A DNA stretch of 13,314 bases, from NCBI GenBank assembly GCA_900554375.1, contig USHK01000011.1, positions 1-13,314 of the forward strand. The letters run 5' to 3'. The notes under the pieces are model-generated. The model did no database searches. It had not been told where the DNA came from and saw only the letters and a list, made by a program, of their open reading frames with translations. Of this stretch, positions 6,131 through 13,314 are shown one piece after another. This DNA is from an uncultured Sutterella sp. (GTDB lineage Bacteria; Pseudomonadota; Gammaproteobacteria; Burkholderiales; Burkholderiaceae_F). Numbering within the stretch: position 1 is the stretch's first letter; every line of letters begins with the position of its first letter. The position numbers and the translations under genes are program-made.

Positions 6131-6641
6131 ATTTGAATCTATGAAGTGTTATCGAATGGCTCTCTACGAGAGGAACTGAAAACTTCAACGGCTATTCTCT
6201 TTTGATCTTTAATAGAGCCTTACTGGTTTAGCCTCGAACTTTTTAAGTGAACAAACGGTATCTTTGAGGCTCCGCTCTCCTTAAGATTTGTCACACCGAT
6301 CAAAGATTCATGTTTCGCTACTCGTAATTGGACGAAGACTTTGTGTATAGCCGAAACTTGAGATTTATTGCCTAGATTTATTCTCAAGACATTTGTTTAT
6401 TGAGGAACAAATTTATCTTTTAATGAAATGCATTTGGCGTTACATGACTATTTATTGTTTGAGAAGCAGACAATCTTAGAAAAGAACCAAACAGTGATTA
6501 TTAGAACTTTTCGCTGAGAGCATTAGTATTTTTATTAATATGGCGCGTTAAACTGAAACGGTGATGAAAAAATTCGTAAAATGAAATAAACTGCCCGAAA
6601 GAAATCCTAATGAAAAATAGGATCGCAAGGAGAAAAAGAAG
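6131..6641. other. Divergent intergenic region between kinase and autotransporter
   Basis: No gene is seen. The region holds a small hairpin, CTCTC-TAC-GAGAG (6160-6172), just upstream of the kinase. It also has an inverted repeat, CTTGAGA (6357-6363) / TCTCAAG (6382-6388), enclosing the 9-bp direct repeat AGATTTATT (6361-6369 and 6374-6382). A promoter-like pair follows near the autotransporter. The stretch is AT-rich and must hold the promoters of both flanking genes. Confidence 0.5.
6553..6582 (+). promoter_or_regulatory. Candidate sigma-70 promoter for the autotransporter
   Basis: CTGAAA (6553-6558, four of six bases of TTGACA) is followed after 18 bp by TAAAAT (6577-6582, five of six bases of TATAAT). 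Transcription would start near 6589, leaving a leader of about 53 nt. The assignment rests on hexamer match and position only. Confidence 0.35.
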
Positions 6642-6896
6642 ATGAAAACATCATTAAAGAAAAATCATTTGCCGTTCTTATCCATGTTGCCTTTTTGTTT
6701 GATGGCAGCTTCAGGTTTCTGCTTTTCCCCGACATGTGCTGCTGCAGGCGTTGAATTAGGCAGTTCCGGCATCGACAGTAATAGCGATATTAGTAGGAAT
6801 GTTTTGGATATCAGCGGTAATGCTCTTGCCGTTGTTAGCGGGGGGGGGTATCTAGAGAAGGTGAATATAATTTCGACTATGACACCGGAGTTATAA
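6642..6896 (+). CDS. OFF-state truncated product: signal peptide plus 5' end of the autotransporter
   Basis: As sequenced, translation from 6642 yields only 84 residues. They comprise the signal peptide, a short mature stretch beginning GVELGSSG, three glycines encoded by the nine G, and about 17 out-of-frame residues before TAA at 6894-6896. It is not a functional protein by itself. It is the product made when the G-tract length is a multiple of three. With 8 G, the third frame would be read instead; I did not trace where that frame stops. Confidence 0.75.
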   Translation: MKTSLKKNHLPFLSMLPFCLMAASGFCFSPTCAAAGVELGSSGIDSNSDISRNVLDISGNALAVVSGGGYLEKVNIISTMTPEL

Positions 6897-9800
6897 CGGG
6901 TTCTCTCGATGGACCTTGGGCGATATGGGGAGGATATTCGCAAGGGACAGTAGAAGACAAAAAAATAACTTGCGACTGGAAAGAAGGTATCTCTGAAGTC
7001 AAGATTACACCAGAGATTTTCGGAGGATATGTCTCAGTTACAATCGACGACGCCAAGGCTAATACGATTCATAATTCAGTCGATCTTCAAAAGGGTAATT
7101 TAAGTTCCGTAGTCCTAACCGGTTACATTAAAGGCGGATACGCGTACGGACAGGGAGAACACGACGCACAATTTAATACTGTTAAACTGACGGAAATTAC
7201 CGCTAATACTAATGTTTACGGAGCTCATGTTTGGTACGGAAAAGGTGGGGCGGAAAACAATTCAGTTTCTTTGATAGATTCCTCCGTTTCCGGGTTTGTG
7301 GTAGGGGTACTTCAAGAAAAAGGCCAAGGTAACGAGGTTCTTAATTCGGTCGTAGCGGAAAATACCAATGTTGGTGGGTATGTTTATGGGGGTTACATCC
7401 TTCAGCCTACTGGGAGCGGCAACATCCTTAAGAATCAAGTCACACTTTCGAAAACCACGGTAAGCGGAGAGGGTGTAGTTGGTGGCTACCATACAGGAAT
7501 GGGTGACGTAACAGAAAATAGCGTCACTCTTGAAAATGGTTCGGAGGTTAAGGGCTTTGTCATTGGCGGCCATACTACAGGGTCGGGTTCAACTGATAAC
7601 AACACGGTTACGGCTACCGATACAAATGTTGGCGGATATCTTTACGGCGGATATGTTAATTCATTAACCGCAGCTGGAACTGCAAGTTCTAATACCGTTA
7701 AGCTAACGAATACTATAATCAAAGGGTTAGGAGCTGCTGGGGGATATTACACAGGAATTGGTAGTGCGGAAAAGCCGACCCAAGAAGATAAATTTAGTAA
7801 TGGTTCTAATTCCAACTTTATTAACGTGATCACTGAGAATAACGAAAAAACAGAGATCAATACTTACGTTATTGGAGGATATGTAGGAGATGTTGGAACG
7901 GATGATCAGAAAGGGCTCTTCTGGGACGCCAATAAAAACCGGGTTGAACTAACTAATACTGGCGGAGAGCTTACTGTAACCGGTTATGTTGCCGGGGGGT
8001 TTAATCAAAGCGCAGGATGCGCCAATTCAAGCTCAAACACAGTCTCTATAACTGCATCATCTTTAGTTAATTCTACCATTAGTGCCAATATCGATATCTC
8101 TGGTTATGTAGTCGGAGGTTATATTTGGGGAAGTGGTGATGGATCGACGGATTATAATACTGTTGAAATATTAATTACTAATAACAGCAGTCTTTCTGTT
8201 GGAGACTATATAGGGGGAGGCTCTTCTGACGCATCGGGGAAAACGGGATCAAGCCATAATACGGTCTCTATACATTCAGAAAACAACCCGATTGAGATTA
8301 GTTCTAGAGTTTTTGGCGGACTCATAGGGGCCAAATTAGATTCCAATGGAAATGTTGTATCCTCTGGTGCTGGAAGTACCAATGACAATAAAGTAACAAT
8401 CAACAATGCAAATGTTAAAACATATATTGTTGGTGGATATAACCAGGGACAAGGAAGAACCGACTCTGACGGCAGTATTATTGAAACTCATGCCACTCGT
8501 AATACAGTAACACTCTCCAATGTAACTTTAAAAGATCCGAAAGTTGGCTCCGACGGGTTCAATGTGGTTGGGCATTTTGTAGTTGGTGGCCTTATAGACA
8601 AAGGCGGCATTGGTAATGCTGAGATAAATACAGTCACTCTTTCGGACAGTAGCATCATTGCAGAATACGTTGCTGGCGGCGTTCACCTAGGTAAAGGTCT
8701 AGTTCAGAATAATTGGGTAAAACTCACGAATACAAAAGTTGTCGGTTTCGTTGCAGGGGGGCTGGATTGGTATGGAGAAGAAGTATCTCTGCTATCCAAT
8801 AATCACGTTGTCATTAATGGTGGTGAAATTACTGGCAGGGTAGTAGGAGCTCGCTCTATGTCCTCTATGTCCTCTAGCTCAGGAGAAAGACCAGGGGCGA
8901 ACTATAACTTTGTGACTATTTCGGATGCCAAAATAAAGAAGGATGATAGCAAGAGCTATAAAGGTCATGTTCTTGGAGCGGCTAATCAAAGGGGTGGAGA
9001 TGCTCTTGGGAATGAGGTTTTGGTTAAAACCAGCGAAGTAGACGGCTATGTAGGCGGTGGTTATATTGAAGGCGGAACCGGAGGTTTTACCGACGGGAAT
9101 AACGTCACCGTAGAAAACAGTACAGTAGGAAGTAATATCGCTGGCGGTTACAATCAAGCTGGAGGATCCGTTGGGTCTGACAATAATCACGTCACCATAC
9201 AAATCGATACCTCAACGGAAGGAAAGACATACACTTTCGGCGGTTTTGTTTCCGGTGGTATTATCGGTAAAGAAAAACTTATAAATGAGAATGATTCCTG
9301 GGGAAGCGGATCTGTTGATTCAAATATAGTCAAAATCGATAACCTCTCGGTAAAAAATACTCTTTCAATAAAGGAGTATGTTGCAGGTGGATATTTTGAC
9401 GGAGCTGGAAATGGCTCGGCTAGTGGTAATCATGTTTATATCGGTCAGAGTTCCCCCTCAACTGCTCAAATTCATATCGGTAGTTATGTTCTTGGAGGAT
9501 TTGTTGGCGCGGCTAAAAAAGATGCTGCCGGAAACGAGGTGCAAACCGCCGGAGATACTTCCGATAACGAAGTCTCCGTTAATAACACCCAAGTTAAATT
9601 GTACGTGGTTGGTGGATACAACAGAAGCTCACTAGGGAATGCAGAGAGAAATGTTCTCCACCTAAACAATGTTTCTCTAATGGATGACAGTGGCGAGATT
9701 AATGAACACTTTGTGGCAGGTGGTCTAATAGAACAGGCGGGGAACGGAAATACCTATAAAAATGAGGTTCACCTCACGAACAGCCACATCAGAGCTAAGT

Positions 9801-12517
9801 ATGTTGCCGGGGGAGTAAGCCAAGGCAACGGACAAGTGAATGAAAATATAGTTGATTTAACAGATACCGCTGTCCAAGGACTAGTAGTTGGAGGCCTTGA
9901 TTGGGGTGATAAAAATGTAAGTTTATACGGGAATAAAGTATCTATTATTGGAGGATTGGTTAAAGAAGTATCCGGCGAAGAGTTAACAGGTCGAGTGGTA
10001 GGGGCTCGTTCTATTGGTTCCGGGAACGTGTCTTCAAACACCGTCCAATTACAAGATGTCGAGTTAGTAGAGGGAGCTGTACGCGGTGGCGTTTCTGCCG
10101 GAGGCGGCAGTTCATTGAATAATCGGGTAACAATCCTAAAGAGCATTATTAAGAAGTCCGTTGCGGGAGGCTATATAGAAGCACATCTGCCCGGAGAAGT
10201 AGGTGACGCGCTAGGAAATTTCGTTTTAATCAGCGATTCTTCAGTTGATGACAACGTTGAGGGCGGCTTTAATCAAGTCTTAGGGAAAGGCGACGCGAGT
10301 CAAAATACGGTTCAGATAAATGGGACTACTAAGATTACCGGATTTGTTGCTGGCGGCGTTATCGGTGAGCAATCTGAGGGAAATACAGATGGAAACCAAG
10401 TGATAATTACAGTAGCCGAAAACGCTTCAATTTCCATTGACGGCTATGTAGCCGGCGGCTTTAACGACGGAAAAGGGCATGGCGCCGTTGGAAATACCGT
10501 TTGGCTTGAAGCAGCATCGACCAGCACTTCAAAACTTGCTGTAGATAATTTCGTAGTCGGAGGCTATCTAAGAAGCGGGGAAGGCAGCACAAATGGGAAT
10601 ACAGTCGTTATCAAAAACGCAGTCGTCTCTGGTCCTTACATTGCAGCAGGTCTTAATGAGGGCCTCGGCCAAGCTCAAAACAACTTAATCACTCTTGAAA
10701 ATGCAGACGTTACCGGAGGCGTGACCGGAGGCCGAGTGACGGCAGCAACGACATCCAGCGGGCGCAGCCTCAATGTGGCTAATTCCAATATCGGAGAATC
10801 GTCAGATAACTATTCTGCTTTAGTACAAAACAATACAGTTAATATCACCGGCAAAACTTCAGTAGTGGGATGGGTTGTCGGTGGCGAAAGCCTTGCGGGC
10901 AACGCTGTCACGGGAAAGCCTGCCTATATCCAAAATAATACTGTAGTGATTGATGATGGTTACGTTGAAGGAAGAATATCCGGTGGAGCGGCTGTCGCCG
11001 GTAACGTTATCGGCAATAAAGTATTCCTCAATGGAGGAACGATTAAAGGCTTGGTGTATGGAGGAACGAGCACCGGTGATGTTAAGAACAACGCCATTTA
11101 TCTAGATGGACGAAAAGGTATAGATGTCACGGGAGCCTGGATTTACGGTCGAGGAAGAGCAACGGCAGGAACAAATGGTAATACGCTAAATATTACTAAT
11201 TTCAAAGGTGCAATGCAAAATATCGGGAACTTCGATAGGATTGATCTTGATCTAGCCGGATTGATGGTCAGAGAAAAAGAACCGATTATTTTGTTGACCG
11301 AAAATCAATCAACGAATTTGGATAACAGCACTATCCACATTCACAGCAGCAGAAAGGCAATTGCTGTTACTGATGACTCTTCATTAGCCGATCGTTATGA
11401 AGTAATCAAAAACCAGTCGGGCAGTCTTACGGCATTTAATGTCATTTACGAAAAAGATAAGCTCGTTGTGGTTCATGAACGAGGCACAATGGAAGGGTTA
11501 TATCGTGTTGAGTGGGATGGCTTCCCTGATCAAATCGGAGACAGTATTGATCTAGTCCTAGAGAGGGTCGAGGAAAGACCAGAGAGCGGAACCTATATTT
11601 CGAACTCTTTAGCGTGGTCTCGCATGCATATGAGATTACACGACAGATTCGGTCAAGCCTACTATATCGATCCCTTCAGTGGAGAAGAAAGGGCTGCCGC
11701 CGGATGGGTTCGCCAAGTTGGGTCCCACTCGCATTTCCGCGCCGGTTCTGATATCAAGACCCATTCTCGAACCGCTGTAACCCAAATTGGCGCCGACCTC
11801 GTCAGAAATGAGTTTAATCAGGATGTCAAGTCTGTCTGGGGTGTCTTTACAGGGGGTTTGTACAATCGATCCAGCGCTAAGACCTACAGCTCCGCACAAA
11901 GCCGGTCAGATGGTTATGCTCTTGGTGTATACGGCACACTTTATACCGGGAACAGCCCGGATGACGGTTTCTATGTGGATTCCTGGCTTTTATTCGGCCA
12001 CTACAACAACAAACTTTGGAGTGACGATTTAGCTAACTTCCGATATAAATCTAATGGGTGGGTTTGGTCTGTGGAAAGCGGTTATACCATTCCACTTTCT
12101 CAATATGGCTCTAAAGACTTTAACAAACTCATTTGGACCTTCCAGCCTGAGATTCAGTTAGTGTGGGACGGTGTTAAGGCAGATACGACAGTCGATAAAG
12201 ATACGGAAACGCGCTTTAAACAACTAGGAACCAATAATGTTTCTTTACGTGTTGGTGCACGGCTTCATGCAAATCACATGAATAAAGGTCTCGGATTTAT
12301 CGAAGGCAATTGGATCCACAATACCAAGAGGGCCGGAGTAGAGATGGGAACGGGCTGTAAATATATTAAAGGCGGCAGGAACTTAGCCGAATTCAGAGCC
12401 GGTCTTGAAGGGCATGTGACTAAAAATCTGCTTGGGTGGGCTACCGTCGGCGTACAAGCCGGTCAGTATGGTTATCACAATGAAACTGCACAGATCGGTC
12501 TCAAATTTATGTTCTAA
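6642..12517 (+). CDS. Phase-variable autotransporter (type V secretion), interrupted by a G-tract frameshift (OFF as sequenced)
   Basis: The gene starts at ATG 6642 with AAGGAG at 6627-6632. A signal peptide (KK near the N-terminus, hydrophobic core, likely cleavage after CAAA at residue 35) precedes a 9-G run at 6840-6848. In the starting frame translation stops at TAA 6894-6896. The downstream frame is open from 6839, directly after a TAG at 6836-6838, all the way to 12517 and has no ATG or GTG before the passenger. One added G, or two lost, restores a single protein of 1,958 residues. The passenger (about residues 36-1680) consists of short repeats of the form N-x-V-x-I/L ... V-x-G-x-V-x-G-G-Y/F ... 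G-x-G, typical of a beta-helix surface protein. A beta-barrel of about 276 residues follows and ends in the outer-membrane signature Phe. The predicted role is a surface-exposed adhesin or structural passenger; the ligand is unknown. Ordinary pseudogene decay or a sequencing error are the alternatives, but the rest of the 5.6-kb frame is intact. Confidence 0.88.
6840..6848 (+). repeat. Poly-G tract of nine (phase-variation switch)
   Basis: Nine consecutive G lie within the coding region, about 198 bp after the start codon. The frame before the tract and the long open frame after it differ by one base. Tract lengths of 7, 10 or 13 join the two frames, while 8, 9 or 11 break them. Homopolymer G or C runs of 8 or more near the 5' end of surface-protein genes are the usual substrate for slipped-strand mispairing. 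The other G runs I noticed in this gene (for example 7994-7999 and 8756-8761) are six or shorter. Confidence 0.85.
7991..11050 (+). repeat. Large tandem super-repeats in the autotransporter passenger (about 1.1 kb each)
   Basis: Three successive modules begin with the same block at 7991 (AGGFNQSAG), 9140 (AGGYNQAGG) and 10259 (EGGFNQVLG). The spacings are 1,149 and 1,119 bp. Modules A and B match along their whole length: GGLIGAKLDSNGN against GGFVGAAKKDAAGN, FVVGGLIDKGGIGN against FVAGGLIEQAGNGN, AGGLDWYGE against VGGLDWGDK, GRVVGARSM against GRVVGARSI, and DALGNEV against DALGNFV. The third module keeps the first part and then diverges toward the barrel. Copies are clearly diverged at DNA and protein level, so the duplication is old. 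The boundaries are approximate. Confidence 0.7.
11690..12517 (+). other. Autotransporter beta-barrel domain
   Basis: The last 275 or so residues, from AAAGWVRQVGSHSHF to the C-terminal QIGLKFMF, have the alternating polar and aromatic pattern of membrane beta-strands. Their length is that of the autotransporter translocator family (Pfam PF03797). The passenger-to-barrel linker runs from about 11470 and includes the conserved-looking LAWSRMHMRLHDRFG stretch. The terminal Phe and aromatic last strand are the signal for outer-membrane insertion. Confidence 0.88.
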
Positions 12518-12596: not shown

Positions 12597-13270
12597 ATGC
12601 AAATAAAAAATACTTTTGTAGTCATGCTTCTAGCAACCGTGACCTTAGGTTTGAGCGCCTGCGCTTCCTATGATCACAAAGACTATCCTCGTGAAAGTTG
12701 GTTTGCACCATCTACTCAAGTGATTTCAGCCGATCAATTCAAGAAGGCAGAAACTCCTTTGAAGGTGGCTTTAGTGGTGAATTACACCTGGGAAGGCCGA
12801 CCTATTGTTCAAGAGCCCTTCGAAGAGCGTCCCGCCGATTGGCGAGAACAGTACGGCTTGGAATTGGCTGCTGCACGCTACCTGGAAGAAACCGGCAATT
12901 TCATCATTGTCGATCCAGACGACAAGGAGAAGCAGGGCGTCATCATAATTGATGTCACTCGTCAGATGGACGAAAAGACTAAAGCCGCGCTGGCCGCCAA
13001 GAAAGCTAACCAGAATGAATCTCCAGAAAAGATCGTCTATGAATATGACATGACAATGAAGATGGAACTGTCTTTAACAGACGGTAAGAAATTTGAAGTC
13101 ATCCCGAAAACCGACCACATGTTCATAGGCCATGAAGAATCAGAGGAAAGAAAAGTCGGCGTTAATCCAAAGCGTTTCACTTTTTCCTATTTCAACAATA
13201 TGGACTTTCACACAGAATTTGTTCGCCGCTTCTATAAACAGATGATTTTTGAAGGGGTTCAACAGATAGA
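12597..13270 (+). CDS. Putative outer- or inner-membrane lipoprotein, 3' end missing
   Basis: An open frame from ATG 12597 runs to the end of genomic sequence without a stop, giving about 224 genuine codons. The N-terminus is a lipoprotein signal: MQIKN, a hydrophobic core, then the lipobox LSAC with Cys22 as the lipidated residue. The mature part is soluble and mixed alpha/beta. It includes a stretch PLKVALVVNYTW (about residue 55), then an acidic and Lys-rich middle (KTKAALAAKKANQNESPEK). I do not recognise the family. The ribosome site is weak (GGAAT before the ATG). It lies 79 bp downstream of the autotransporter on the same strand and may be read from its transcript. The frame stays open through the adapter at 13271-13314, adding about 14 false residues (CLLYTSDAADDSLR) that must be discarded. 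Confidence 0.75.
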
Positions 13271-13314
13271 CTGTCTCTTATACACATCTGACGCTGCCGA
13301 CGACTCCTTACGTG
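13271..13314. other. Illumina Nextera adapter read-through (not genomic)
   Basis: The last 44 bases match the Nextera read-1 transposase adapter in reverse complement. They comprise the 19-bp mosaic end CTGTCTCTTATACACATCT (13271-13289), then GACGCTGCCGACGA (13290-13303), then CTCCTTAC (13304-13311), then GTG (13312-13314), the first bases of the P5 side. CTCCTTAC is the reverse complement of the i5 index GTAAGGAG (S505/N505). The genomic sequence therefore ends at or near 13270, and this is the raw end of an assembled contig. Confidence 0.97.

Follow-up and report, generated by a model that had tools for sequence, protein, structure and literature searches.

Introduction

Slipped-strand phase variation is best known in pathogens and their close kin. 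The present study concerns a tract of nine guanines (G9) within an autotransporter gene of an uncultured Sutterella sp., found on contig USHK01000011.1 (assembly GCA_900554375.1), from which a stretch of 13,314 nucleotides, hereafter the window, was analysed as a whole. A first-pass annotation, made from the letters of the window alone, had called the phase variation of surface proteins through G or C runs established in host-adapted bacteria; Campylobacter capD and Neisseria nalP and mspA are known examples of such switching. The relevant parts of PMC7168839 place a poly-G tract in the coding sequence of Campylobacter capD and in front of capC, and describe both proteins as having a conserved barrel and a highly divergent passenger; in C. 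jejuni, 9 G was the commonest length of the capC tract, and tract length did not match the intact or inactive status of the gene. For N. meningitidis, the part of PMC3723659 on autotransporters reports that a homopolymer inside the coding sequence of nalP and mspA sets these genes ON or OFF, with poly-C lengths of 6-15 in nalP and 6-14 in mspA, and that NalP switching was confirmed by immunoblot. At the level of whole genomes, the tract statistics in PMC6321876, obtained with PhasomeIt, show a sharp peak for Campylobacter poly-G/C tracts, with 53% having 9 residues and 26% having 10.

The G9 tract and the two reading frames

The first-pass annotation had located the break in the frame that runs from the start codon and signal peptide exactly at a run of nine G, and had described an otherwise intact passenger-plus-barrel frame opening directly after a TAG codon; all of this is confirmed (Table 1). 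The tract starts at codon 67 of the signal-peptide frame, whose stop sits 46 bases past the G9 and whose N-terminus, judged by eye, is hydrophobic and signal-peptide-like. Apart from the tract both frames are intact, the signal-peptide frame on the 5' side and the barrel frame through all of its codons, where other inactivating changes were looked for and none were found. The barrel frame contains no ATG, GTG or TTG before the TTG at 7271, and inspection by eye revealed no apparent ribosome-binding site upstream of it. The G9 is the sole G or C run of at least 7 in the window, for which a first-order Markov model gives an expectation of 0.06 runs of at least 9.

Table 1. Positions of the tract, the reading frames and associated features in the window.
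Feature	Position	Strand	Remarks
Shine-Dalgarno-like AAGGAG	6627..6632	+	9 bases 5' of ATG
Signal-peptide frame, 84 aa	6642..6896	+	ATG start; enters G tract, stop beyond
TAG, last stop of barrel frame 5' of tract	6836..6838	+	
G9 tract where the two frames part	6840..6848	+	equivalent G9 in L001 (7863-7871) and L079
TA flank of tract	6849..6850	+	common to most long G tracts in the closest genomes
Passenger and barrel open frame	6839..12517	+	1,892 codons (6839-12514), stop TAA 12515-12517
Passenger of the ORF listed from TTG 7271	7271..11569	+	repeat-rich (GGY / N-x-V repeats, by eye on consensus)
Autotransporter beta-barrel	11570..12514	+	TIGR01414 E 7e-40; PDB 4mee E 3.4e-31
Partner gene downstream of autotransporter	12597..13270	+	lipoprotein-like start; runs into adapter-like sequence

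The interpretation that fits the G9 best by a wide margin, and that we hold with considerable confidence, is slipped-strand phase variation of the autotransporter. The tract would act as a simple-sequence contingency locus, in which slipped-strand mispairing at replication would alter the number of G residues and the changed number would join or separate the signal-peptide frame and the passenger/barrel frame. The product would be an AIDA-like autotransporter of ~1,900-2,000 residues, exported by cells with the tract in the right phase, and cells like the assembled one would make the short peptide only. Slippage, its reversibility and surface expression are what we infer from this arrangement. 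The earlier statement that the barrel frame can be entered only by slippage was slightly too strong in the word "only", as transcriptional or translational frameshifting could also give entry. The annotation's ON/OFF interpretation itself is supported by the conservation of the G9, tracts in paralogues, an intact relative and the lack of other inactivating changes in the barrel frame. Parasutterella-type gut commensals thus probably switch their surface at random, because the G9 breaks the gene in the manner of known ON/OFF genes and similar tracts occur in many surface genes of close relatives.

Related loci and proteins at the tract

Working labels denote DNA loci (L), protein records (P) and genomes (G). 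A pattern scan of a species-genome collection returned one relative for this query, Parasutterella excrementihominis YIT 11859 (G001), with the same gene order as the window, which places the window in Parasutterella or very close to it. At its syntenic locus (L001) a G9 separates the ATG frame (7739-7900) from a barrel frame of 1,708 codons, and in a same-family genome a homologous, though not visibly syntenic, locus (L079) has its two frames divided by a G9 likewise; in both the tract lies in the equivalent position after the signal peptide. In both loci the barrel frame opens at the tract and is then open through the barrel, and the comparison with relatives that the first-pass annotation had proposed yielded two homologous loci that keep the G9 in place. 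Pairwise identities of the aligned DNA around the tract (~0.75 kb) among window, L001 and L079 are only 44, 49 and 56%, so that the shared position of the G9 exceeds what chance would give. In the window the distance from signal peptide to tract is ~90 bases longer than in the other two, and the sequence 3' of the tract reads TATCTA, TATTTA and TATCTA in the three loci.

Among protein records, P0005 (1,956 aa, 84% identical) is continuous from the signal peptide across the equivalent site to the barrel, which indicates that an intact natural copy of the autotransporter apparently exists; signal peptide and long passenger, divided between two frames in the window, are here seen in one polypeptide. 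The annotation of P0002 (95% identity to P0005) starts only at P0005 residue 155, with the first 154 residues missing, and this shortened start suggests a copy in another phase, for which it would be as expected. A contig cut could also have removed the start, though of the 13 contigs of P0002 the longest measures 192 kb. Protein starts were inspected for the first 25 of 39 relatives, of which P0005, P0006, P0018 and P0025 have a signal-peptide-like start and P0008 starts in a frame that lacks a signal peptide; the remaining inspected relatives have their first residue at the tract or within the passenger, in several cases perhaps due to contig ends. A practical caution is that annotated starts of such genes can be false downstream ones (P0001, P0002, P0003, P0017).

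Distribution of tracts near autotransporter frame openings across the family

Barrel similarity gave 46 matches in 16 of the 67 family genomes, and upstream DNA was obtained for 43 of them, three partial matches being excluded. These 43 loci consist of 26 loci and a further 17 of genomes G048 and G049; three (L049, L080, L094) were dropped where the contig ends before the opening, leaving 40 loci in addition to the window. A G or C run of at least 7 occurs within 150 bp of the barrel-frame opening in 11 of the 40 loci (12 of 41 including the window). With the window excluded, runs of this length number 12 in the 11,998 bases near openings compared to 4 in the 335,997 bases outside (P 1e-19, by a Poisson test that treats sites as independent, some loci overlapping). 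When only loci with a barrel identity of at least 70% are considered, seven of eight have a tract near the opening, the exception being L050.

In eight of the 11 tract-bearing loci the tract lies in the coding part, out of frame in six (L001, L079, L047, L076, L084, L091) and in frame in two (L078, L051), a share near the one third expected under random phase. The tract near the opening lies upstream only in L077, L085 and L090, and L077 has an additional in-frame G9 at +612. The search for G-tracts in paralogous autotransporters that the first-pass annotation had suggested was fruitful in P. excrementihominis, where another autotransporter opens at a C7 (L047) and an autotransporter-like frame opens at a C10 (L040). 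The latter may have a second break, since its PF03797 match (E 1.5e-17) covers only profile positions 12-147 of 255. In addition, six long tract frames extended in G002, G064 and G065, picked for their tract and thus not a random sample, were all autotransporters (PF03797 E 4e-25 to 2e-46), L140 being in frame and the other five out of frame.

Genome-wide tracts and their TA flank

G or C runs of exactly 7, 8, 9 and 10 number 6, 2, 10 and 2 in P. excrementihominis, with a peak at 9 and no decay. The window together with G001, G002, G064 and G065 contains 62 distinct tracts of at least 9, with lengths of 9 (53 tracts), 10 (8) and 13 (1), part of the G002 tracts lying in low-complexity contig regions and possibly representing assembly noise. 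The genes affected extend beyond autotransporters, although family labels apply to separate frames. The HsdM gene of P. excrementihominis is split at a G8 (L044 6425-6432), with HsdM_N and N6_Mtase in different frames, which makes this type I methylase a candidate phase-variable methylation system. An AT3/SGNH acyltransferase of the same species is divided at a G9, and a repressor-like gene, a resolvase and a glycosyltransferase frame are also found at runs of at least 8. Other tract frames match DNA methylases (L114, L132, L134), a glycosyltransferase (L123), a UDP-sugar dehydrogenase (L112, in frame), ManC (L135), a sulfatase (L116) and baseplate-like proteins (L128). Thirteen of the 27 frames scanned had no Pfam family, including five cut autotransporter starts and one partner gene, which is not a tract frame.

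Clusters of G9-G10 tracts were also observed, with six tracts in L128 (G002:C135), four in L039 (G001:C22) and three in L103/L106 (G064:C11), at a spacing of ~450-820 bp and apparently with one tract per tandem gene. Two G002 frames match the Gp10_C baseplate domain, which suggests phase-variable phage tail or surface proteins. None of the viral contigs scanned contained a stretch that fitted the patterns used.

Of the 62 long tracts, 42 have the dinucleotide TA directly 3' on the G strand, compared to 1,924 of the 29,007 shorter G runs (2-6 residues) in these loci (~7%). Across the 67 family genomes, TA follows 171 of 495 runs and AT precedes 44 (mirror control), and across 55 other genomes of the class TA follows 35 of 281, with a mirror control of 16. 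The TA share differs by genome, from 10 of 12 runs in G001 through 4 of 19 in G003 to 0 of 16 in G024. Coding does not explain the TA, because it stays on the G strand even where C is the coding strand. An explanation in which TA is kept as an immediate stop (TAA/TAG) was considered and found insufficient, since poly-C genes have the TA too, on the side that does not code.

It is possible, if somewhat doubtful, that Parasutterella and its nearest relatives have a Campylobacter-like phasome built on a G9-then-TA element that is read on the G strand regardless of which one is coding. If so, the TA would be part of the mechanism, for example by setting the polymerase slip site or the point where growth of the run starts or stops, and the tracts would form a sequence-defined class rather than mere homopolymers. 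The flank raises the question of what sets the position and length of a tract.

Phase variation and alternative explanations

Several observations weigh against phase variation of this locus. All three DNA copies (window, L001 and L079) have 9 G and all are out of frame, with no tract-length variant among them. P0005 and P0002 are known as protein records, and the missing start of P0002 may have another cause, such as a contig cut. P0006, P0018 and P0025 are without a GGG run at the tract site, so the tract is not universal and certain alleles are perhaps locked. With the 84-aa fragment as query, only the window's own protein was matched. In the wider family, two autotransporter genes are disrupted in the absence of a tract, L048 by a frame shift and L083 by an in-frame stop, and none of the 17 autotransporters of G048 and G049 has a tract near the opening; the tract habit is therefore limited to part of the family.

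There are three potential explanations other than phase variation. Recoding at the G run, through programmed frameshifting or through slippage in transcription, could yield some full-length protein from the same DNA, and the exact 9 G of the three copies, as well as the predominance of exactly 9 among the long tracts, fit such recoding. However, the phase between the two frames in the window is unlike that in L001 and L079 at equal tract length, which speaks against one fixed direction of recoding; moreover, the RNA 3' of the tract is not unusually stable compared to shuffles (z -0.31), and tracts can also be found 5' of start codons or with C in the coding strand. We therefore regard recoding as quite unlikely.

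A decaying pseudogene, in which the indel in the tract would be one of the changes inactivating a gene no longer required, would account for the broken frames of all three DNA copies and has parallels in the tract-less broken autotransporters L048 and L083. Decay is contradicted by the absence of any other stop in the long downstream frame, by the intact relative P0005 and by the barrel frames of L001 and L079, which open at the same tract and are then uninterrupted through the barrel. Crude Nei-Gojobori estimates for window versus L001 give a dS of 0.20 and a dN/dS of 0.048 for the barrel, and the low barrel dN/dS argues that the autotransporter gene is maintained by purifying selection; a pseudogene is accordingly very improbable. 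Just as improbable is a homopolymer miscall in sequencing or assembly of a gene that is constantly in frame, which is favoured by the imperfect trimming evident in the adapter-like 3' end of the contig and opposed by the out-of-frame G9 at the equivalent site in two other genomes and by the occurrence of other tract genes of related genomes in both phases.

The autotransporter protein and neighbouring genes

The sole solved relative found among PDB sequences is 4mee, a diffuse adherence adhesin, and the last residue of the barrel is an aromatic F, as in classical AIDA-type T5a autotransporters. No Pfam family was found at E 0.001 for the downstream ORF, and none for the 84-aa fragment. By the same selection estimates, the 334 codons 5' of the barrel have a dS of 0.18 and a dN/dS of 0.18. 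Over the first 1,100 codons (window 7271-10570) synonymous sites are saturated or nearly so, and the last 650 codons differ little. The passenger has thus been swapped or has strongly diverged, a pattern that suggests allele exchange or mosaic passengers.

Along the window, an NhaC-type antiporter, an M20 peptidase and a hybrid histidine kinase (- strand) precede the autotransporter region, which is followed by the lipoprotein-like partner gene truncated by the contig end. The partner gene, which has no Pfam or NCBIfam match, carries a DHKDYPRESWF motif that occurs 3' of autotransporters of the same barrel family in the window and five loci (L001, L047, L050, L051, L076) and is absent from L077, L078 and L079. 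Positions 13271-13314, at the 3' end of the window, resemble a sequencing transposon adapter and truncate this gene, so that its final predicted residues are an artefact.

Comparison with known systems

The first-pass annotation had suggested that the use of phase variation on this autotransporter may be undescribed, and a full-text literature search, which did not cover most subscription journals, found among the papers listed, as judged from their entries, none on phase variation or autotransporters in Parasutterella or Sutterella, or on adhesins of P. excrementihominis. The kind of system is well known; its use in this bacterial group was not found in the literature covered. If the interpretation is true, tract switching would be a main source of diversity in the autotransporters, sugar-coat enzymes and DNA methylases of Parasutterella-type gut commensals, and roles in colonisation or phage resistance would become testable via simple tract typing.

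Campylobacter belongs to another phylum than the bacterium of the window. Compared to its capC and capD, as the source cited above partly describes them, the present locus is alike in its poly-G and in combining a conserved barrel with a divergent passenger, a likeness of organisation; the passenger here is different and the tract lies shortly behind the signal peptide. The likeness to nalP and mspA, within what the cited part reports, is a homopolymer in the coding sequence, but theirs is poly-C with measured expression, whereas here a poly-G is known from sequence. Several autotransporters of the genomes studied here bear tracts, among them L047, L051, L076, L078, L138-L140 and L040. With the Campylobacter phasome, as summarised in the tract statistics above, these bacteria share a genome-wide set of tracts peaking at 9, most of which here carry a 3' TA.
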